Source: Thermoproteota archaeon
GTDB taxonomy: Archaea > Korarchaeota > Korarchaeia > B14-G2
DNA: 11,280 nt
Assembly (NCBI GenBank): GCA_003661385.1
Contig: QMWA01000036.1
Location: forward strand, 1-11,280
Direction of reading: 5' to 3'
Shown here one piece after another: positions 1,091 to 10,385 of this stretch. Positions within the stretch are counted from its first letter, which is position 1; each line of letters opens with the position of its first letter. The notes under the pieces were generated by a model. That model searched no databases. It saw only the letters and a list, made by a program, of their open reading frames with translations, and was not told the origin of the DNA. The translations under genes and the position numbers were made by a program.

Positions 1091-2389
1091 TTAACCACCT
1101 CTCATAGCCCTAATCCTATCCAGTATCATTCTCAGGATCTCAACGTCAGGCTTCAAGCCATCAGGTGGGTTTATCACCTTCTTCATGTGTATAGGCACGC
1201 CATCCATCCTATAAGCTGTCCCTTCTACCTCAATGCCCAGCATTGCAGTCGGTATCACCACTTCAGCTATGTCTGTTGTTGAAGTCCACCTTGGGTCTAT
1301 CAGAACCACCGGTATCCTGGACAGATGCTCAACTGCTTTCCTTGGGAAGTTTGAGGCTGGATCTGATGCGACTATCAGAGCTGCATCTGCTTCTCCTCTA
1401 ACGAGTATATCTGTGACAGATGTTTCACCTGGATTATATCTCGGGTACCCGTGGCTGAAGTCTACAGCATAGGGGTAGCCTGTTTGCCATGTGAAGACAG
1501 CGTTCGCACCTACCACGTTATAGTGGCCTCTCATGGGCATCATGACAAATTTCGTGTATGCATTGAGGTCTCTGACAAGAGAGATTGCCAAGTCAATATT
1601 CCTATACTTTCCTCCTGTCATGGTAAGTCCTACTCCCCAGAAAAGCACTCCGAACTCACATGAGATAAGCAGGTCAGCTACCTCTTCTATATGCTCCCTT
1701 TTGACCCCAGCTACCTCCTCTTGCTCCAGCTCTTCTCCTCTAACAGCTGTCCTAAGGGCAGATAGGAGCTCGTAGTCCTTTCCAGGCTGAATCTGAATGA
1801 AGTAATCTGCTACTCGCGCGGTATAGGTCTTCCTCACGTCCACGACTATAAGCGTCCTCTCATCTCTGCTCTTCCTGAACTTCCCCCTCGCCATTACAGT
1901 ATACCTGGAGAGGTGCCTAGGATGGGACTGAAGAGGATTGGATGCCCAGTAGATTATGAGGTCAGCTCTGTTCTTGATTTCACCAAGAGTGCATGTTGGA
2001 TGCCCTACCTCATGCACCCCAAGAACACTCGGCCCGTGGCAGACCACTGAAGTGTTGTCTATTACCCCACCAACTTCCTCCATAAGCTCAATCCCAGTAG
2101 CTATGGCTTCACAGCTTGTATTAGACCACCCATAGGATACAGGGTAGTCTGCATTCGCTAGCAGCTCAGCAGCTCTGTTAACAGCTTCCTCTAGGCTAGT
2201 CTCCTCGAGTTCTCCATTCTTCCTGACCATCGGCTTGCTTATCCTTTCCCTGTTGTAGTTTAAGTACTTTGTTATGCTCAGTGCGCACCCATTCTTTACT
2301 CCTGCTATCTTTCCCTCCTCGACCAAGATAACCAGGTCATCACATAGGCAGCCACAGAATGGGCACACCACGTCTCTAACCTCACTCAA
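1091..2389 (-). CDS. fwdB: Formylmethanofuran dehydrogenase subunit B (Mo/W catalytic subunit)
   Basis: This is the molybdopterin oxidoreductase subunit that reduces CO2 to formate in the first step of the methyl branch. The product is 432 residues, the usual family length. The N-terminal motif CPFCGCLCDD supplies Cys9, Cys12 and Cys16, and Cys35 in KNGCAL completes a [4Fe-4S] site. Cys117 in NTSVVCHGPS sits where the metal-ligating Cys or Sec of the family is found; here it is a plain TGC cysteine, so this is not a selenoprotein form. The start is TTG 2389, overlapping the fwdD stop by 8 bp, with a GGAGGGGAGA ribosome site inside the end of fwdD. The FeS and metal-ligand cysteines separate it from the bacterial FhcB relatives that lack these cofactors. 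Sequence alone does not tell molybdenum from tungsten. Confidence 0.97.
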   Translation of the reverse strand: MSEVRDVVCPFCGCLCDDLVILVEEGKIAGVKNGCALSITKYLNYNRERISKPMVRKNGELEETSLEEAVNRAAELLANADYPVSYGWSNTSCEAIATGIELMEEVGGVIDNTSVVCHGPSVLGVHEVGHPTCTLGEIKNRADLIIYWASNPLQSHPRHLSRYTVMARGKFRKSRDERTLIVVDVRKTYTARVADYFIQIQPGKDYELLSALRTAVRGEELEQEEVAGVKREHIEEVADLLISCEFGVLFWGVGLTMTGGKYRNIDLAISLVRDLNAYTKFVMMPMRGHYNVVGANAVFTWQTGYPYAVDFSHGYPRYNPGETSVTDILVRGEADAALIVASDPASNFPRKAVEHLSRIPVVLIDPRWTSTTDIAEVVIPTAMLGIEVEGTAYRMDGVPIHMKKVINPPDGLKPDVEILRMILDRIRAMRGG

Positions 2390-2771
2390 GCCTCTCCCCT
2401 CCTTCTTCCCTGCCCTCAGCTCTATGCTCCTCTGCAGGCTCGATTTCTACTTCAATCCCTTTCAAGCTAGGCATACCAGTGGAGTGCGTTTCCTCGTCTA
2501 TGATCTTGTTTATCCAAGGCCCATAGGGGACGAAGACTACTCCCCTCGGCACCTCCTGGAGGGGCCTAGCTGTCTTTAAGACGAGCTCTCCTCTCCTGCT
2601 CTTTAGTTTCACTAGGGATCCAGCTGTGACTCCAATCTCCTTCATGTCCTCCTCATTCATCTCGCAGTAGTTCATGATCCTCCTATACTGCTGAGATAGC
2701 TTCCCAAACTCAATACCCATGCCCTGAGAATAGCTTCTGCCAGTTATAAGAACCGCTTTAATCCGCTTCAA
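2382..2771 (-). CDS. fwdD: Formylmethanofuran dehydrogenase subunit D (molybdopterin-dinucleotide-binding)
   Basis: FwdD forms the C-terminal molybdopterin-dinucleotide-binding half of the catalytic unit whose N-terminal half is FwdB. Family landmarks are the opening AVLITGRSYSQGMGIEFGK, the central NYCEMNEEDMKEIGV, and VPYGPWINKI with STGMPSLKG near the end; a charged Glu/Arg tail follows. I place the start at TTG 2771, giving 129 residues, close to the usual family length. It is preceded at 5 nt by a perfect GGTGATC ribosome site (2777-2783), and family homology begins right there. The frame stays open to another TTG at 2846, which would add 25 unconserved residues, but that codon lies upstream of the likely TATA element. 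It is the first gene of the leftward fwdDBA set and overlaps fwdB by 8 bp. Confidence 0.92.
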   Translation of the reverse strand: MKRIKAVLITGRSYSQGMGIEFGKLSQQYRRIMNYCEMNEEDMKEIGVTAGSLVKLKSRRGELVLKTARPLQEVPRGVVFVPYGPWINKIIDEETHSTGMPSLKGIEVEIEPAEEHRAEGREEGGERLE

Positions 2772-2776
2772 GCCCT

Positions 2777-2783
2777 GATCACC
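2777..2783 (-). promoter_or_regulatory. Ribosome binding site deciding the fwdD start
   Basis: On the minus strand GGTGATC is followed by five bases (AGGGC) and then TTG 2771. It is a full match to the archaeal 16S 3'-end complement and supports the shorter fwdD start over TTG 2846. Confidence 0.8.
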
Positions 2784-2818
2784 GCCAATCTGCTTCAAGT
2801 GAGGGTACCCGAGCCCTA

Positions 2819-2832
2819 CGTTATTAAGGTTT
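2819..2832 (-). promoter_or_regulatory. Candidate TATA element for fwdDBA
   Basis: On the minus strand AAACCTTAATAA occurs with TTAATAA at 2827-2821. Assuming usual archaeal spacing (about 26 bp), transcription would start near 2798, giving a leader of about 27 nt that holds the GGTGATC site. Assigned by eye from spacing and AT content only. Confidence 0.45.
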
Positions 2833-2870
2833 GGGTAATCCCCCAACTCTCAGCAGCTCTCTAGGTCTCC

Positions 2871-2884
2871 AAAAACTATTATAC
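2871..2884 (+). promoter_or_regulatory. Candidate BRE/TATA element for fwdC
   Basis: CCAAAAACTATTATA runs into ATTATA at 2878-2883, with an A-rich BRE-like stretch just ahead. The predicted start of transcription is near 2906, about 25 nt before the fwdC ATG. With the element for fwdDBA it would make this a divergent promoter region. Not tested by any model. Confidence 0.45.
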
Positions 2885-2930
2885 TCAAGGTCGAACCCCC
2901 ACCAGCTAGCTGAGAAGCAGGGATGGAAAT

Positions 2931-3761
2931 ATGGGCGAAATAACCCTTAAACCTAAGATTGAGATCAAAGTCCCACTTGATCTGAGCTGTATCTCTCCAG
3001 ATAGTCTCTCATCTATGACTCCCGATGAGATCAAGAAGCTGGAAGTACAGTACGGCAACAAGAAGAAAGCACTCGGAGAAATCTTTGATGTAGCTGGCGA
3101 GCCTGGAGGAAGCCCAGAAGACACGAAGATACTGGTCGAAGGATCTCCAAGGATCAGAAAGCTAGGCAAAGGTATGTCTGCAGGCACAATAGAGGTCAAG
3201 GGGAGTGGAGGCCTATATCTTGGCGAGGAAATGAGTGGAGGCAGGATAGTTGTATACGGCGACTGTGGACCCTGGCTTGGAGCAGGTATGTCAGGTGGTG
3301 AAATAGAAGTACACGGCAATGCAGGTGATGCAGTAGGCGCCTCATATAGAGGTGCTGGGGAAGGCATGAAAGGAGGTCGAATAGTAGTCCATGGAAGCTG
3401 CGGGTATGAAGCTGGAGAATGGATGCAGGGTGGTGTGATAATCATTGAAGGAGATGCTGGCGAGTTTGTCGGCGTACACATGTCCGGTGGCACCATATTA
3501 GTGAAAGGAAACTCAGGTGAGAGAGCTGGTGCACAGATGACCAAGGGAACGATAGCGATTCTCGGCAGAATTCCATCGGTTCTCCCCAGCTTCACAATAG
3601 ACTCGATAAGGAAGTCGGTTAAGGTTGAGGGTGAGAAGATACCCGGCCCATTCTACGTGTTCATAGGAGATCTAGGCGAAGGAGGAGAGGGGAGGCTCTA
3701 CATCTCGGTGGAAAGCAACCCACATCTCAAAGAGTACGAGAAGTACCTAGAGGAGATCTGA
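2931..3761 (+). CDS. fwdC: Formylmethanofuran dehydrogenase subunit C (beta-helix, GXGXG repeat)
   Basis: FwdC is the beta-helical structural subunit of the formylmethanofuran dehydrogenase complex and is related to the C-terminal domain of glutamate synthase large subunit. The product has 276 residues, normal for the family. Residues 1-57 form the family's N-terminal part, and residues about 79-213 hold six or seven imperfect repeats built on G-x-x-M-S-G-G-x-I-x-V-x-G-x-x-G, for example GEEMSGGRIVVYGDCG and GVHMSGGTILVKGNSG. The ATG at 2931 matches the family N-terminus (EITLKPKIE...); the ribosome site is weak (GGGATGG, six bases ahead). The gene is divergent from fwdDBA although its product belongs to the same complex. 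ftr follows 50 bp downstream on the same strand. Confidence 0.96.
   Translation: MGEITLKPKIEIKVPLDLSCISPDSLSSMTPDEIKKLEVQYGNKKKALGEIFDVAGEPGGSPEDTKILVEGSPRIRKLGKGMSAGTIEVKGSGGLYLGEEMSGGRIVVYGDCGPWLGAGMSGGEIEVHGNAGDAVGASYRGAGEGMKGGRIVVHGSCGYEAGEWMQGGVIIIEGDAGEFVGVHMSGGTILVKGNSGERAGAQMTKGTIAILGRIPSVLPSFTIDSIRKSVKVEGEKIPGPFYVFIGDLGEGGEGRLYISVESNPHLKEYEKYLEEI
3165..3569 (+). repeat. In-frame glycine-rich repeats within fwdC
   Basis: About seven imperfect units of 17-26 codons encode the G-x-x-M-x-G-G-x-I-x-V-x-G-x-x-G turns of the parallel beta-helix. These are protein-structure repeats, diverged at the DNA level, and not mobile or tandem-array DNA. Confidence 0.85.
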
Positions 3762-3774
3762 TCTCTCCACTAAG

Positions 3775-3781
3775 TATTTAA
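3775..3781 (+). promoter_or_regulatory. Possible TATA box ahead of ftr
   Basis: TATTTAA lies in the 50-bp gap between fwdC and ftr, about 34 bp before the preferred ftr ATG. ftr may therefore have its own short-leader transcript besides read-through from fwdC. Weak evidence. Confidence 0.35.
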
Positions 3782-3811
3782 CTACCTCAATTGAAGGCTG
3801 AGGGTGCGACT

Positions 3812-4711
3812 ATGCCTATAGTCAATGGTGTTGAAGTAGATGATTCAGCTTTTGCAGAGCTATTTCCAATGTGGGTTGGTAGAGTACTAATAACTGCCGA
3901 CAGCGAGAAGTGGGCTATGGCTGCAGCTCAAGCTGCAACAGGCTTCGGCTCATCGGTCATAATGTCCCCTGCCGAAGCAGGGATTGAGTGTGCTGTTCCG
4001 CCATCAGATACCCCCGATGGCCGCCCTGGTGTACTGATACAGATATATCAGAGGACAAGGCCGATGCTTAAGGCTCAGATGATATCGAGAATAGGCCAGT
4101 GTGTCATGACCTGCCCAACAACTGCCGCGTTCGATGCATTACCTGAGGCTAAGAGAAGACTGAGGGTAGGCCATGCAATAAGGATGTTTGGAGACGGATT
4201 TGAAGAGAAGAAGGAGATGTATGGTAGGACTATGTGGGTAATTCCGGTGATGGAGGGGGCATTCATCATTGAAGACCGGTTTGGCGCAAAGAAAGGCATT
4301 GCAGGCGGGAACTTCATCATCATGGGGAGCACGAAGGAGAGTGCTTTAAGGGCCGCTGAAGCCGCTGTAGAAGCCATAAAGAAGGTAGGTGGCGTAATAC
4401 TGCCATTTCCAGGTGGAGTATGTAGGTCAGGGTCTAAGGTAGGCTCCATGAAGTACAAGCTTCCTGCTTCAACAAACCACATGTTCTGCCCTACACTCAG
4501 GGAGAGGGTTCCTGAATCCCAGGTTCCAGAACAGGCCTCAGCGGTCTACGAGATAGTATTCAATGCAGTATCCCTAGACAAGATAAAGGAAGCAACTAAA
4601 GCAGGCATAGAGGCTGCCACGAAAGTAGAAGGCATCATAAAGATCTCTGCCGTGAACTTCGGAGGCAAGCTTGGTCCAGTCAAAGTCTATCTAAGGGACT
4701 TATTCACCTGA
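3812..4711 (+). CDS. ftr: Formylmethanofuran:tetrahydromethanopterin formyltransferase
   Basis: Ftr is a cytoplasmic enzyme that moves the formyl group from formyl-methanofuran to tetrahydromethanopterin, the step after the Fwd complex. The product of 299 residues matches the family over its whole length: INGVEVDDSAFAE-like N-terminus (here VNGVEV), EKWAMAAAQAATGFGSSVIM, SPAEAGIE, DTPDGRPGV, RIGQCVMT, GIAGGNFIIMG, LPFPGGVCRSGSKVGS, LPASTNHMFCPT and ISAVNFGGKLG near the end. I prefer ATG 3812, preceded by GAGGGTG at five bases, over TTG 3791, which would add seven residues. It lies downstream of fwdC in the same direction. Its stop codon overlaps the 3' end of the convergent nucleotidyltransferase gene by 8 bp. 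Confidence 0.96.
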   Translation: MPIVNGVEVDDSAFAELFPMWVGRVLITADSEKWAMAAAQAATGFGSSVIMSPAEAGIECAVPPSDTPDGRPGVLIQIYQRTRPMLKAQMISRIGQCVMTCPTTAAFDALPEAKRRLRVGHAIRMFGDGFEEKKEMYGRTMWVIPVMEGAFIIEDRFGAKKGIAGGNFIIMGSTKESALRAAEAAVEAIKKVGGVILPFPGGVCRSGSKVGSMKYKLPASTNHMFCPTLRERVPESQVPEQASAVYEIVFNAVSLDKIKEATKAGIEAATKVEGIIKISAVNFGGKLGPVKVYLRDLFT

Positions 4712-5702
4712 GCATTATGTAGTCCTTACCGGCAAGTGAAAGCGACCCCACTACGACTCTAGCCTCACCATCAGCTACCTCAAGCTCCCCCCTAATTTCG
4801 ACTGCATCCCCCGAGAGCAGTGTCCCCGAGTAAAGCGAGCTGAGGCAGATGAGTTCTGTAGGTTTCATGCTTGCATCTCCCTCCAGAACTTCTACCCTAC
4901 CTATTCTGTAGATGGCTGGGTAGAACACTCCTTCTTCATCGTCCTCTATCACCGCCCTCAAGACGACTTTCCCAAGTTTCACACAGCTGTGTACGCTTAA
5001 GTTCCCTATTTCCTCTCTTTCCCTGCAAGCTAGCACCGAGAACTCTGTCCCCATGTACTCTCCCCTGTTCCACCTCCTCTTAAGCAGCTTCTCCAGTCCA
5101 AATGGCGGTATGGAGTCTGTCCTCCATACGCCAGCATCCATCTTCCTTCTAAGCAATCTCTGGGAGTAAAGTTCGATTAAAGCCTCTCTGACCAGGGAAG
5201 CCTCGCTCTTCCCATATACAGTTAAGTCTATGTCAGAGAACGCTGTATTGTGCATGTTAAGGAGGATGCTTCCAGTGACTCCCATCTTTGATACGCTTAC
5301 TCCTGCTTTCTCAGCTATCATGGACGCTAAACTAGCCGCCTTCGCCTCCAAAGGGTCTTTTTCATCCTTTGATAAGAGGCTCCTAAGCTTCTCCTCTGGG
5401 ACATAGTGTTTAATGACCCGGCTCACTGGAACAGCGGAGAAAACCCCCACACATGGGATCGCTGTAAGGTAATGAGGAGCTTCTCTTTTAAGAAGTTCTA
5501 GGGTATCTTTGAGGAACTCCATAGTATAATACTTCAGCACCCTCTCAGCTCTGAACCCTCTTCCTCCCCACTTCCCCCTCCTGCTCTTCATGTACTTCAA
5601 GTAAGCTATAACCCTATCCTTCGGATGCTTGTTTCCAATGACGCAGAAGAAGTAGCCTTCACTAGTCTCGAGAAAGTCTCTATCTGCTACTTTCAATAGC
5701 AT
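4704..5702 (-). CDS. Archaeal predicted nucleotidyltransferase, paralogue 1 (pol-beta superfamily)
   Basis: This 332-residue protein belongs to an archaeal group usually annotated only as predicted nucleotidyltransferase (COG1665-like, from memory). The pol-beta signature is intact: Gly144-Ser145 in VTGSILL, then Asp157 and Asp159 in SDIDLTVYG, and a candidate third carboxylate, Glu220, in MGTEFSV. The N-terminal 30 residues (FLETSEGYFFCVIG) match those of the upstream neighbour. A C-terminal part of about 90 residues is beta-rich by eye (EVEVLEG-like, EIRGELEV) and may bind nucleic acid, which is a guess. Substrate is unknown; transfer of a nucleotide to RNA, protein or a small molecule are all possible. 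It is the last gene of the leftward four-gene chain, starting at ATG 5702 and overlapping the previous gene by 23 bp. Confidence 0.82.
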   Translation of the reverse strand: MLLKVADRDFLETSEGYFFCVIGNKHPKDRVIAYLKYMKSRRGKWGGRGFRAERVLKYYTMEFLKDTLELLKREAPHYLTAIPCVGVFSAVPVSRVIKHYVPEEKLRSLLSKDEKDPLEAKAASLASMIAEKAGVSVSKMGVTGSILLNMHNTAFSDIDLTVYGKSEASLVREALIELYSQRLLRRKMDAGVWRTDSIPPFGLEKLLKRRWNRGEYMGTEFSVLACREREEIGNLSVHSCVKLGKVVLRAVIEDDEEGVFYPAIYRIGRVEVLEGDASMKPTELICLSSLYSGTLLSGDAVEIRGELEVADGEARVVVGSLSLAGKDYIMLR

Positions 5703-6648
5703 ACCCCGGAGCTATGTAGCTCCAGTCGTCATTAAGGGAGATAACAAGCCTTATGCTGCCATCAGGGGGTATGCATAGCTCTATATGCCCGCTAACATAT
5801 ATCAGGGTGCCAGCTTTAGCTCCTTCGGTATCTCTTATTCTCAGGGAAAAGACCTCGCTGGCATTAACTCCCCTTACAGCTCTTATTTTGCACTGCATTG
5901 GAGTGAACACAGAATACCTGTCATCTAACACCTCATATACCCCCTTCACTCGCCCTAGTGGTATGTACAGCCTGCATTCCGGTAGGCTATCTGTCCTCGC
6001 CAGCCTGATGCTATACTCTACTCCGTTAAACATGCCTTGAAGGACTCTGCTAGCCTCTCTTCTCCTGAATAAGCTGTAGCTTATCTCTCCCCTAATGCTA
6101 GCATATTTCCTCTTTATGATGTCCTCGCTAAGTGGCTGGGTGGCTCCCTTAGCTCTAAGCTCGCTGAGCACACTATAAGCAAGCGTTCCGTCCTTTTCGC
6201 CATACACCACTAGATCTATGTCAGAGGTTTCGCGTTCTATGCCTAGGCTTACAGATCCGCTGACGCCTATGTTGCTCTCGCTAACGCCATAGCTTTCGAG
6301 CATGCTTGCCATCTCCAGGGTTGCTTCTCCGACTCTGCTTCTAGCTCCACGCTTCTTAAGCCTGGCATAAGCCTCACGCGCCTTCAAGATGCTCATGATG
6401 TCTTCAGAGAGTACTCTCATGGCAACTCTGCCTATGGCTTCATCATACCACAGGTACCTCCTTGCATGCTTCATCACTTCTGCAAACCTCTCTCCTAAGG
6501 GGTACACCTTCAGCTTTCCAGCTGCTCCTGTCACGTACTTCAGGTATGCGGTATACCACTCCGCTCCATGTCTAGCTCCCTTAACCTCGAATACATATCC
6601 TTCTCTCGTCAGTATGTAGTCTCCTTCAGCTAGCTTCTCCTTCTGCAC
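5680..6648 (-). CDS. Archaeal predicted nucleotidyltransferase, paralogue 2 (pol-beta superfamily)
   Basis: A 322-residue relative of the next gene, sharing the layout: N-terminal YILTREGYVFEVKG, a helical middle, then the catalytic core with Gly131-Ser132 in GVSGSVSLG, Asp143 and Asp145 in SDIDLVVYG, and Glu211 in NGVEYSI. All three likely metal ligands are kept, so it is probably active. Between core motifs the two proteins differ widely, which points to an old duplication and separate substrates or a heterodimer. The start is GTG 6648 with GGGGGAGA ahead of it; the first 19 bp overlap the end of the radical SAM gene. Function and substrate are not known from the sequence. Confidence 0.82.
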   Translation of the reverse strand: MQKEKLAEGDYILTREGYVFEVKGARHGAEWYTAYLKYVTGAAGKLKVYPLGERFAEVMKHARRYLWYDEAIGRVAMRVLSEDIMSILKAREAYARLKKRGARSRVGEATLEMASMLESYGVSESNIGVSGSVSLGIERETSDIDLVVYGEKDGTLAYSVLSELRAKGATQPLSEDIIKRKYASIRGEISYSLFRRREASRVLQGMFNGVEYSIRLARTDSLPECRLYIPLGRVKGVYEVLDDRYSVFTPMQCKIRAVRGVNASEVFSLRIRDTEGAKAGTLIYVSGHIELCIPPDGSIRLVISLNDDWSYIAPGYAIESSR

Positions 6649-7691: not shown

Positions 7692-8236
7692 GCTCTCATT
7701 ATATCTACAGCTTTATTCGAGTCTATGACTTCAGCTTTGAGGACTTCTCTCATGTGCTCCAGCGCCCACCTGTGTCTATCCTCACTTAAGCTAGCTGTCC
7801 CATCTGACACAACCAGCACGGTATATCCTCTAAAGAAGGCATCAGCTACAGTATAGAGCACGCATATGTCTGTGAGCACCCCTGTTACAATGAGCTTATC
7901 AACGCTTCTCTCTCTTAAAGCTAGATCTAGGTCGGTACCGAAGAAGCCGCTATATCTCCGCTTGTAAACGACAACCTCATTCGCAGCAGGCTTGAGCTCG
8001 TCGATGACCTCAGCTCCCCAAGTCCTTCTCACAGCATGTGGCGGGTAGAACTTGAACTCCAGGTCATCTGGCAGGTGTGCGTCACAGACATAGAATACTG
8101 GAGCTCCACTCTCTCTTGCTGCAACTAGTATCTTCCTTATGTTGCTGATTATCTTCCTCGCCTCAGGCACATACAGTGCTCCTTTCTCGCTTGCAAAGTC
8201 GTTTAGCATGTCGACTACCAGGAGTGCAGTCGACAA
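7676..8236 (-). CDS. Isochorismatase-superfamily hydrolase, nicotinamidase-like
   Basis: The 186-residue cysteine hydrolase matches archaeal nicotinamidases, which deamidate nicotinamide for NAD salvage. The catalytic triad is complete: Asp9 in VVDMLNDF, Lys92 in VVYKRRYSGF and Cys125 in LTDICVLYT. Likely metal ligands are Asp52 and His54 in CDAHLP and His67 in PPHAVRRTWGAEV. The superfamily also contains ureidoacrylate, maleamate and other amidases, so nicotinamide is likely but not certain. The start is TTG 8236; a stop lies shortly upstream in frame and GGGGGT precedes the codon. It is the first gene of the leftward chain, reading from the shared divergent promoter region, and it overlaps the radical SAM gene by 16 bp. 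Confidence 0.85.
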   Translation of the reverse strand: MSTALLVVDMLNDFASEKGALYVPEARKIISNIRKILVAARESGAPVFYVCDAHLPDDLEFKFYPPHAVRRTWGAEVIDELKPAANEVVVYKRRYSGFFGTDLDLALRERSVDKLIVTGVLTDICVLYTVADAFFRGYTVLVVSDGTASLSEDRHRWALEHMREVLKAEVIDSNKAVDIMRACKQT

Positions 8237-8257
8237 TAAGACCCCCTGCCATCAGTC

Positions 8258-8294
8258 AACTGTACTGCTTTAAAACTTCTATCACATCACAGTT
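8258..8294. promoter_or_regulatory. Possible operator: spaced inverted repeat around the TATA box
   Basis: AACTGT (8258-8263) and its reverse complement ACAGTT (8289-8294) flank the TATA box with centres 31 bp apart, about three helical turns. Such a pair is compatible with a winged-helix dimer site, but six-base arms can arise by chance. Confidence 0.25.
8269..8275. promoter_or_regulatory. Near-palindromic TATA box in a divergent promoter region
   Basis: TTTAAAA on the plus strand reads TTTTAAA on the minus strand. Leftwards it sits about 36 bp before TTG 8236, preceded by a purine-rich BRE-like GAAG; rightwards it is about 44 bp before GTG 8316. It fits the leftward four-gene unit best and could serve both directions. 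Confidence 0.6.
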
Positions 8295-8298
8295 ATCA

Positions 8299-8305
8299 GG
8301 AGGTG
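8299..8305 (+). promoter_or_regulatory. Ribosome binding site of the threonine-synthase-like gene
   Basis: GGAGGTG is a near-perfect Shine-Dalgarno sequence lying ten bases before GTG 8316. The spacing is slightly long, but no other in-frame start codon fits better. Confidence 0.65.
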
Positions 8306-8315
8306 TCTCAGCCAA

Positions 8316-9599
8316 GTGCAGCTGAAGTGCTTGAGATGTGGCAAACTGTATCCTCCTATAGTTACACTAGAGAAGTGCGCTTGCGGTGGCCCTCTATCTC
8401 TCGAGGGAGCCAGGTCAAGTGGTACAGGAGACGGGGTATGGAGATATAGGAGGCACCTTCCCAGCATGGAGGTCGAGCTATCTTTAGGAGAAGCTGCAAC
8501 TCCGCTGATACCCTGCATAGGTCTGCAGAAGCAGATCAGGTTAGCTAGTCTCTATGTGAAGGACGAGTCGAAGAACCCTACTGGCTCCTACATAGACAGA
8601 GGTAGCGCTGTGTTAGCATCAGCCATAGCTTCCTCAGGCCTACTCTCAGTGAGGCTCCACGGAGACGGAAACTACATTGCATCGATGGGGGCATACTTGG
8701 CTAGAGCTGGTGTGAAGGCTCTTGGAAGCTATGAGCTGCCAGTAGACTTAAGCAAGACCATACAAGCATCGCTATATGGGGTGAAGCACAGCTCATCAGA
8801 GAGCTCACCAGTGGTATCATATCGCAACCCATTCATGCTAGAAGGCTTAAAGACTATCGCCATAGAGATGGTAGAGCAGCTTAACACGGTGCCCTCTGCT
8901 GTCATTGTACCCACTGCCACAGGGGTCCTCCTGTTCTCGCTCTATAAAGGATTTAGAGAGCTCCTTGACTATGGGAGCATAGACAACCTTCCTGTGTTAT
9001 ATGCTGCTGTCTCAAAGGGGCACCCCTTAGTCAGCTCTAAGCAAGCACATACTGCGTTGTTCCTTCCGGTAGCTGATAAAACCTACATAGAGGAGGCGAG
9101 AAAAGCTCTGAGAGGTACAGGGGGGGATGCAGTTGAGGTATCTGATGCTGAAATGATCCGCTGCGTGAGGGTCTTAGCTAGAGTTGAGGGGATACTAGCT
9201 GAGCCTTCTGCTGCAGCCTCTGTAGCAGCCTGCTTCAGGATTTCTAAGAGACTAGCTTCATCTAGCCCCGTAGTCGCATTGGTCACAGGATCAGGCCTTA
9301 AAGCCTTAGATCTCCTGGCATACTCCTCTGATGCTACAGGCGCAGGTGCAGCTTTCCACAGGATAAAGGTCGAGATTCTCAAGGCTATAGCCGAGCGTGC
9401 TCCAATCCACGCATATGGAATCTATAAGCTGCTTAACGAGAGAGGGCTAGCTACCTCCCCACAGCTGGTCTATGCATATCTCGAGGACCTCAGCAAGAGA
9501 GGCCTCGTCTACAGCATGAATGTTGCCTCGCAGAGGAGGAAGAAAGTATTTTACTTGACTCCAGTAGGCCGCTCTCTTCTATCGCTAGTAACCTATTAA
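8316..9599 (+). CDS. Threonine-synthase-like domain lacking the PLP lysine, fused to a PadR-like winged helix
   Basis: The 427-residue protein begins with a zinc ribbon (Cys5, Cys8, Cys21, Cys23), then a fold-type II PLP domain of threonine synthase type (about 50-340) and ends in a PadR/MarR-like winged helix (about 345-427; AYGIYKLLNERG, then LEDLSKRGLV and KVFYLTPVGRSLL). In true threonine synthases the Schiff-base lysine lies in GSFKDRG; here the segment is NPTGSYIDRGS, with Ile93 (codon ATA) at that place. The usual glycine-rich phosphate loop also deviates (VPTATGVLL at 198-206). Other family segments survive: KDESKNPTG, LEGLKTIA, AEPSAAASVA and VTGSGLK. I infer a ligand-sensing regulator rather than an enzyme. 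It is divergent from the four-gene chain and 51 bp ahead of an ECF transporter gene. The start is GTG 8316. Confidence 0.85.
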   Translation: MQLKCLRCGKLYPPIVTLEKCACGGPLSLEGARSSGTGDGVWRYRRHLPSMEVELSLGEAATPLIPCIGLQKQIRLASLYVKDESKNPTGSYIDRGSAVLASAIASSGLLSVRLHGDGNYIASMGAYLARAGVKALGSYELPVDLSKTIQASLYGVKHSSSESSPVVSYRNPFMLEGLKTIAIEMVEQLNTVPSAVIVPTATGVLLFSLYKGFRELLDYGSIDNLPVLYAAVSKGHPLVSSKQAHTALFLPVADKTYIEEARKALRGTGGDAVEVSDAEMIRCVRVLARVEGILAEPSAAASVAACFRISKRLASSSPVVALVTGSGLKALDLLAYSSDATGAGAAFHRIKVEILKAIAERAPIHAYGIYKLLNERGLATSPQLVYAYLEDLSKRGLVYSMNVASQRRKKVFYLTPVGRSLLSLVTY

Positions 9600-9613
9600 C
9601 CCGTGCTTTGAAT

Positions 9614-9623
9614 AAAGTTTATC
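9614..9623 (+). promoter_or_regulatory. Possible TATA box ahead of the ECF S-component gene
   Basis: AAAGTTTATC lies about 30 bp before ATG 9651, a spacing expected for a nearly leaderless archaeal transcript. The 51-bp gap would also allow read-through from the upstream regulator-like gene. Confidence 0.35.
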
Positions 9624-9650
9624 ACCAGGAATCAAGCTCACTAAGGTAGC

Positions 9651-10385
9651 ATGTTGCAGAAAAGCGCCAAAGAGCTGGCATTGATAGCCATATTCACAGC
9701 AGTCAACTGCATCTCAACAACTCTAATTCAGGTGTACATTCCTGCGACAAAGGGGTACTTCAATGTAGGAGAGTCAACTGTTTACATCACAGCAATGCTG
9801 TTCGGCCCGAAGGTTGGGGCTCTAGCTGGTGCGCTAGGTCCTGCTCTAGCAGACGTAGCTACTGGATACTACATCTATGCACCAGCGACAGCAGTCATTA
9901 AGGGGCTGGAAGGGCTTGTAGTTGGCCTTTTAAGTAGAAGAGCTGTCAGAAGAAGGATTCCAGGCTACTTGTACGCTCTAGCTCCCTCCGTTCTCCTACT
10001 GATCATAGGCATCATGTACTACACTGGGTCATCAGAGCTAACTATAGGAATCCCAAAGTTAAATATGACAATCCTAGTCGAGATACACTACCTAGCTTGG
10101 ATCATCACAGCAGTTGTAGCAGCTGCTGCCTTAACCTATGTGGCAAGAAGCCCAGAATGCCTACAGTGGGTTATATCGGCTTCAGCTGGGGGGGCTATAA
10201 TGGTTCTAGGGTACTTCCTCTATGAGCAGCTTGTCCTCGGGTACTATGCTATAGCGGAGGTTCCCTTTAACATAGCTCAAGTACTTGTTGGGATACTCAT
10301 TGCAGTCCCTACAGTGAGCACCTTATCTCGTAGGCTGCCTAGCTCTTCAAGGAGATTCCTCCTCGATTCTAGCGCCATCAAGTGA
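9651..10385 (+). CDS. ECF-type transporter substrate-binding (S) component
   Basis: A 244-residue integral membrane protein with six or seven hydrophobic segments (about 8-30, 43-70, 76-95, 106-125, 141-165, 173-199, 208-226). The run around residues 37-94 (FNVGESTVYITAMLFGPKVG, then GALGPALADVATGY and APATAVIKGLEGLVVG) and the late VPFNIAQVLVGI are typical of energy-coupling-factor S components of the riboflavin/vitamin type (PF07155-like, from memory). S components capture a vitamin or cofactor precursor and work with EcfT and EcfA ATPases, which are not in the window and may be shared from elsewhere. The substrate cannot be read from sequence. The gene follows the threonine-synthase-like regulator on the same strand, and its last 39 bp overlap the convergent mevalonate kinase gene. 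ATG 9651 has AAGGT just ahead. Confidence 0.85.
   Translation: MLQKSAKELALIAIFTAVNCISTTLIQVYIPATKGYFNVGESTVYITAMLFGPKVGALAGALGPALADVATGYYIYAPATAVIKGLEGLVVGLLSRRAVRRRIPGYLYALAPSVLLLIIGIMYYTGSSELTIGIPKLNMTILVEIHYLAWIITAVVAAAALTYVARSPECLQWVISASAGGAIMVLGYFLYEQLVLGYYAIAEVPFNIAQVLVGILIAVPTVSTLSRRLPSSSRRFLLDSSAIK

Follow-up and report, generated by a model that had tools for sequence, protein, structure and literature searches.

What is the function of a threonine synthase-like protein that has lost its catalytic lysine and carries a DNA-binding domain at its C-terminus? This question is raised by a korarchaeial gene on an 11,280-nucleotide stretch of DNA (contig QMWA01000036.1), which was analysed in its full length and is referred to as the window. 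An earlier note on this stretch, made from the sequence alone, had read the gene as a transcription factor sensing an amino acid, phosphohomoserine or a B6 vitamer. According to our analysis, the gene product is quite likely a transcription factor controlling the supply of vitamin B6, composed of a lysine-less ThrC-like sensor and a PadR-type DNA-binding winged helix. For the family at large, a role as B6 regulator appears likelier still. The decisive evidence lay outside the gene itself (8316–9599), in the gene that follows it (9651–10385) and in promoters at homologous loci. The features of the gene are as follows.

8316–9599, forward strand: putative fused regulator gene (ThrC-like domain plus winged helix), 427 amino acids, GTG start codon; a single open frame with relatives of the same architecture
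8328–8384, forward strand: zinc-ribbon cysteines C5, C8, C21 and C23 near the N-terminus, invariant among fused relatives in the alignment
8481–9290, forward strand: threonine synthase-like (fold-type-II PLP) domain, residues 56–325 (PF00291, PALP, E 2e-38; Foldseek on the model)
8592–8594, forward strand: ATA codon of Ile93 in the column of the Schiff-base lysine (alignment with solved enzymes and homologues)
8910–8936, forward strand: former PLP-phosphate loop, PTATGVLLF replacing P(V/I)GNAGNIS (alignments)
9375–9581, forward strand: PadR-type winged helix, residues 354–422 (PF03551, E 9.7e-9, above cut-off)

The postulated joining of a ThrC-like domain to a PadR-like winged helix was borne out, as both lie in one frame and both Pfam domains score above their cut-offs. 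The winged helix reached 35.5 bits with PF03551 compared to a gathering score of 27 and is thus of the PadR type. Homology of the fold-type-II domain to threonine synthase (ThrC) was evident from Pfam, from the alignment and from a Foldseek search with the domain model, whose top matches were threonine synthases (E 6e-20, 28–31% identity over about 330 residues). The structure prediction suggested in the earlier note thereby recovered the threonine synthase fold, but modelled the winged helix at low confidence (pLDDT <50) because few sequences were usable. Its input alignment consisted of the window protein and the proteins of L035–L039 alone, and the model is uninformative on the pocket or a dimer. 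In the alignment of fused proteins, the window protein has VYAYL where the others show a near-invariant recognition segment, VYQHL.

Ile93 aligned with the lysine of the NPTGSFKDR motif in the references 2zsj, 6cgq and 1uim, confirming the replacement of the Schiff-base lysine. In the same way, the proposed erosion of the phosphate loop was apparent from the alignment with solved threonine synthases, in which the Gly/Asn-rich PVGNAGN corresponds to PTATGVL (residues 199–205) of the window protein. Without the Schiff-base lysine, this domain would be incapable of the chemistry of threonine synthase. A sequencing slip at codon 93 was ruled out, as all fused homologues from Korarchaeia, which stem from independent assemblies, lack lysine at this position and have I, V, A or M. 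In threonine synthase, PLP is also contacted by the S-x-G-N motif through its Asn, by the Gly-rich phosphate loop and by the C-terminal TG motif through its Thr. These other contacts are intact in the R-, I- and L-type proteins of Asgard archaea and Thermococcales. The window protein retains Asn119 (GDGN) and the Thr324-Gly motif; with its phosphate loop partly lost, it may not bind PLP in the way that other members could. The assumption that the substrate-side segments remain held for NPxxxEGxKT and the lysine of LSK, but not for STGNT, which has become GDGNY, nor for the positions corresponding to N154, S155 and R160 in the Thermus enzyme, which are altered by our reading of the alignment.

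Relatives were gathered by protein and family searches of genomes, and their loci were read as stretches of 14 kb to 2 kb. We take these genomes to belong to Korarchaeota, Thermococcota and Asgard archaea; "Lokiarchaeia-like" is the label given in this analysis to family f45. The winged helix was found in 106 of 152 ThrC-like proteins. Three of the 106 are truncated without a residue at the lysine column, and the tabulation of this column proposed in the earlier note was therefore carried out over 103 fused homologues (R 49, K 19, I 14, V 12, L 6, A 1, M 1, N 1). Of these, 84 are devoid of the Schiff-base lysine, and all 46 unfused homologues have K. Hence the lysine loss, which had been regarded as a peculiarity of this protein, is real but shared across the fused family as a whole. 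Such a loss is not an absolute requirement, since 19 fused members of the same architecture, 18 Lokiarchaeia-like and one from Thermococcales, keep the lysine; the 18 also share the B6 neighbour gene described below. A one-off degenerate gene was ruled out by the family census together with one conserved neighbour.

In a tree of 87 rows, calculated with the lysine column removed, a single branch with a support of 92 parted fused from unfused proteins. The window protein with its C-terminal PadR-type winged helix was placed inside the fused side, and its nearest kin were short Korarchaeum-type proteins (support 98). At least three changes between Lys and non-Lys are needed on this tree, which would fit a single early loss, with Lys later regained or else retained in two cases (f45 and G173). 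The latter genome harbors the lone Thermococcales member with Lys among Arg-bearing relatives (L198:4035–5363, forward strand). Fused proteins and a separate, unfused Lys-bearing ThrC coexist in many genomes. In the f45 proteins (L111–L133), the catalytic lysine occurs alongside winged helix, S gene and operator. As the lysine is kept and several of these genomes are without another strong ThrC match, the Lokiarchaeia-like proteins could be bifunctional.

The expectation that no described family has this architecture stood only in part. The NCBIfam model NF004170 (PRK05638, "threonine synthase", 442 positions) already represents the same fused architecture, but it is filed as an enzyme, and the open-licence literature yielded no report of a regulator in which ThrC is fused to a winged helix. 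Fused Thermococcales proteins with Arg at the lysine column scored 690–831 bits with this model compared to its cut-off of 421; the name "threonine synthase" is therefore probably wrong. This probable misnaming has passed into genome annotation and also leads attempts to reconstruct pathways of Asgard archaea and Thermococcales astray. NF004170 is also the best NCBIfam match of the window protein, which at 200.1 bits is not a member.

Immediately downstream of the gene lies its most informative neighbour.

9651–10385, forward strand: gene for an ECF transporter S-component, HmpT/PdxU2-like, with presumed function in vitamin B6 uptake (PF07155, E 1.7e-30; 4HZU chain S, E 4.7e-14)

The S gene starts 51 bp downstream of the regulator gene on the same strand and thus provides a B6 gene next to the regulator, as in many members of the fused clade. 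Its product belongs to PF07155 (106.7 bits compared to 26.7), and chain S of 4HZU was its sole match in the PDB. PdxU and PdxU2/HmpT, both COG4720/PF07155, are named as ECF-type B6 transporters (PMC9997740). Pyridoxamine was the substrate extracted from HmpT, a protein originally named for hydroxymethylpyrimidine (PMC4860826). That paper names six ligand residues of HmpT, four of which are identical in the window S gene (E41, Y120, N140 and Q143), while H84 is replaced by Lys and Q87 by Glu. The S-component presumably carries a B6 vitamer.

This linkage is conserved. Outside Thermococcales, an S-gene homologue was located at most 1.5 kb, mostly at most 130 bp, from the fused gene at 42 of 72 fused loci, including 20/21 in f45, 10/10 in f49, 2/2 in f15 and the window. 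The two genes are convergent in f45, divergent in f49, G007, G009 and G025, and oriented alike in the window, G026 and G038. None of the unfused loci read had an S gene beside ThrC. Two apparent cases of an unfused locus with a B6 neighbour were dismissed, L253 being a fused gene truncated at the edge of its locus and L256 a dehydratase-type gene. In G062, G074/G075 and G131, the fused gene is adjoined by pdxS and then pdxT; in Thermococcales, the regulator sits away from B6 genes.

PdxS was not detected in the tested genomes with a regulator-S pair, namely G000, G007, G009, G025, G026, G038, G088, G097, G107, G120, G133, G141 and G151. It is present, by construction, in genomes with the regulator beside pdxS, and was found in 24 of 25 Thermococcales tested (exception G172). 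In the genome of the window, neither PdxS nor homoserine dehydrogenase nor a further ThrC was detected, absences that are not proof because the assembly is 91% complete.

Inspection of the S-gene upstream regions revealed tandem palindromes. A palindromic model trained on 25 of these regions reads ATATAAGTTNNAACTTATAT and was used to score the 150-bp upstream region of each gene at the loci that were read. A threshold of 11 bits was reached by 31 of 49 S genes, by 0 of 58 unfused ThrC genes and by 4 of 787 other genes, all four being pdxS copies outside the training set (two loci, each read twice). The divergent regulator/S intergenic regions of f49 were held out of training and gave scores of 4 to 19 in 9/10 cases. 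The strict form ATAAGTTNNAACTTAT occurred at 13 sites in 15 Lokiarchaeia-like genomes of 3–5 Mb; 12 of them are at the regulator/S locus, spread over 11 genomes, and the thirteenth, in G107, is surrounded by leucine-rich-repeat-like and unrelated genes. Degenerate genome-wide matches outside the regulator locus were mostly intragenic in the loci returned and were taken as chance. A perfect core was found upstream of remote S genes in G033 and G064. In G064 (L256:1492–3433, reverse strand), the S gene with its perfect operator core lies apart from the regulator and follows a threonine-dehydratase-like gene.

Thermococcales, with their regulator remote from B6 genes, offered an independent test. 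Here, the 200 bp preceding pdxS contained the core AAGTTNNAACTT with at most two mismatches in all 11 genomes that possess the regulator and in none of the 14 that lack it (25 genomes, Fisher 2e-7; by the pdxS tree only two independent changes, both in the expected direction). Two mismatches were reached by 13% of shuffled sequences, so that the three weakest Thermococcales sites, including both Pyrococcus pdxS sites, which are at chance level, are unconvincing alone. Korarchaeum-type genomes displayed no operator at the S gene.

The upstream regions in the window itself were compared with this operator.

8237–8315, no strand: intergenic promoter region of the regulator gene, operator not established (no family-operator match)
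9600–9650, forward strand: gap between regulator and S gene (no family-operator match)

The first region borders on an isochorismatase-type gene, which is divergent from the regulator and ends at 8236. No family operator is present in either of these regions, the best scores in the window being -3.2 and -9.5 bits, and the link between regulator and S gene in the window consequently rests on adjacency. A TTTAAA sequence (8269–8274) lies between AACTGT (8258–8263) and ACAGTT (8289–8294). We do not claim these repeats as an operator, since their 25-nt gap is unlike the family site. The missing operator, the eroded phosphate loop and the change from VYQHL to VYAYL suggest that the operator, and perhaps the ligand too, has shifted in Korarchaeia.

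Elsewhere in the window, formylmethanofuran dehydrogenase subunit and formyltransferase genes (FwdB, FwdC, Ftr) are located on both strands at 1091–4711, and two similar genes, overlapping and in tandem, that weakly match a nucleotidyltransferase (PF01909) at 4704–5702 and 5680–6648 on the reverse strand. On contig C10 of the same genome (L070:4016–5610, reverse strand), a cysteine synthase-like gene beside a gene for a ParB-like protein is broken by a TGA, either a real break or an assembly error.

The architecture, the residue losses, the single fused clade, the gene linkage, the operator shared by the relatives and the co-occurrence of regulator and operator are established by computation. 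From them we infer DNA binding by the window protein, the nature of its ligand, repression as the sign of control, non-covalent ligand binding and co-transcription with the S gene. In the proposed mechanism, the ThrC-like domain without Schiff-base lysine would serve as sensor and the C-terminal PadR-type winged helix would contact DNA. Family members would bind the palindrome overlapping the promoter of the S-component gene or of pdxS/pdxT, and would most probably repress when PLP or another B6 vitamer occupies the old cofactor pocket. As this pocket keeps cofactor contacts yet loses the lysine, its residues suggest that PLP is bound reversibly without a Schiff base, a mode suited to sensing the free cofactor. 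The palindromes overlap or flank a TATA-like sequence near the start codons, which in archaea would point to repression, presumably by blocking basal factors. With the S gene 51 bp downstream on the same strand and no detectable PdxS, the regulator of the window would most likely match B6 import to need. The notion of a dead ThrC-like domain as the sensor of a winged-helix regulator thus gained support, and with it the B6 vitamer among the three effectors guessed in the earlier note.

The other two effectors did not fare as well. Control of amino-acid synthesis by a regulator sensing threonine or O-phosphohomoserine would agree with the descent from threonine synthase and with the retained LSK lysine and NPxxxEGxKT segment. 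We regard it as very unlikely, since homoserine dehydrogenase and a separate ThrC were not found in the genome of the window, the residues holding substrate phosphate and carboxylate are altered in the protein, and the neighbours and operator targets in the loci read are the B6 importer and pdxST, never threonine genes. Equally improbable is import of another pyrimidine-like vitamin (hydroxymethylpyrimidine/thiamine) by the S-component and its sensing by the regulator. The original naming of HmpT (PMC4860826) and the Lys and Glu in place of its His84 and Gln87 would be in line with such a substrate; however, both adjacency and operator are common to pdxS/pdxT, and the lack of PdxS coincides exactly with the pairing of S gene and regulator.

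That the protein has remained an enzyme, either threonine synthase or one related to it, which the winged helix merely ties to DNA, is hardly credible. The NCBIfam name of NF004170, the lysine in 19 fused members and the Lokiarchaeia-like genomes without another strong ThrC match speak for it, but the lysine is lost in 84/103 members of one fused clade, and many genomes with a fused gene also possess an unfused Lys-bearing ThrC. An unlikely explanation, although one that deserves attention, is that the family regulates B6 while the Korarchaeial branch has switched its effector or become ligand-independent, controlling its neighbours without sensing PLP. It would account for the PTATGVL loop and the missing family operator in the window, and for the sister clade, in which the loop reads PAESGVLA, the Asn119 motif is lost and corrinoid and acyl-CoA genes adjoin the regulator. 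On the other hand, the S gene still adjoins the regulator here and in its kin G007, G009 and G025, and the window protein keeps Asn119 (GDGN) and the Thr324-Gly motif. The short Korarchaeum-type fused regulators (L042:2986–4101, L045, L051, L052, L054, L068) are located between acyl-CoA dehydrogenase and corrinoid-protein genes and have no B6 gene nearby; their PLP loops are almost gone, and a change of effector is possible.

Returning to the control of B6 supply, on balance we favour the view that Archaea (Thermococcales, Asgard lineages and Korarchaeota) have a B6 regulator family of their own, a lysine-less ThrC domain with a winged helix that binds PLP reversibly without a Schiff base and is independent of PdxR. 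We found no archaeal regulator of vitamin B6 described in the open-licence literature. If true, the family would be an independent parallel to bacterial MocR/PdxR that uses a different PLP fold and a different type of helix. Two questions thereby become directly testable, namely how a PLP enzyme turns into a sensor upon losing its key lysine and where B6-dependent archaea, Lokiarchaeia-like ones included, obtain their cofactor. The operator offers a ready DNA target in growable organisms such as Thermococcales.

Compared to known systems, the Thermococcales fused proteins of NF004170/PRK05638 have the same architecture and length as the window protein. They carry Arg at the lysine column and stand alone, whereas the window protein has Ile, an eroded phosphate loop and an adjoining S gene. 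With ThrC (2zsj, 6cgq, 1uim, 1v7c) it shares the fold at 28–31% identity over about 330 residues; unlike ThrC, it lacks the Schiff-base lysine and the Gly-rich loop and has an additional DNA-binding domain. It has this DNA-binding domain in common with PadR-family regulators (PF03551), which to our knowledge have no enzyme-like sensor domain. The S gene product belongs to the same family as HmpT/PdxU2 (4HZU chain S; COG4720/PF07155) and keeps E41, Y120, N140 and Q143, but differs by its length of 244 amino acids, an insertion between two matching halves, and the changes of H84 to Lys and Q87 to Glu. MocR/PdxR proteins consist of an N-terminal GntR-type helix and a fold-type-I aminotransferase domain, usually with its lysine kept. 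PdxR and other MocR/GabR regulators, described for Bacteria, likewise combine a PLP enzyme-like domain with a winged helix and control pdxST or B6 uptake (PMC5320631). The fused family differs by its fold type II, its C-terminal PadR-type helix, its usually lost lysine and its occurrence in Archaea, in agreement with the earlier comparison to MocR/GabR as a precedent in another PLP fold with the helix at the opposite end. The sensor domains of the two groups share no homology, and the window protein has neither a GntR-type helix at its N-terminus nor a fold-type-I aminotransferase domain. By analogy, it may work like PdxR yet is not a member of that group, from which it differs in fold, helix class, domain order and domain of life.
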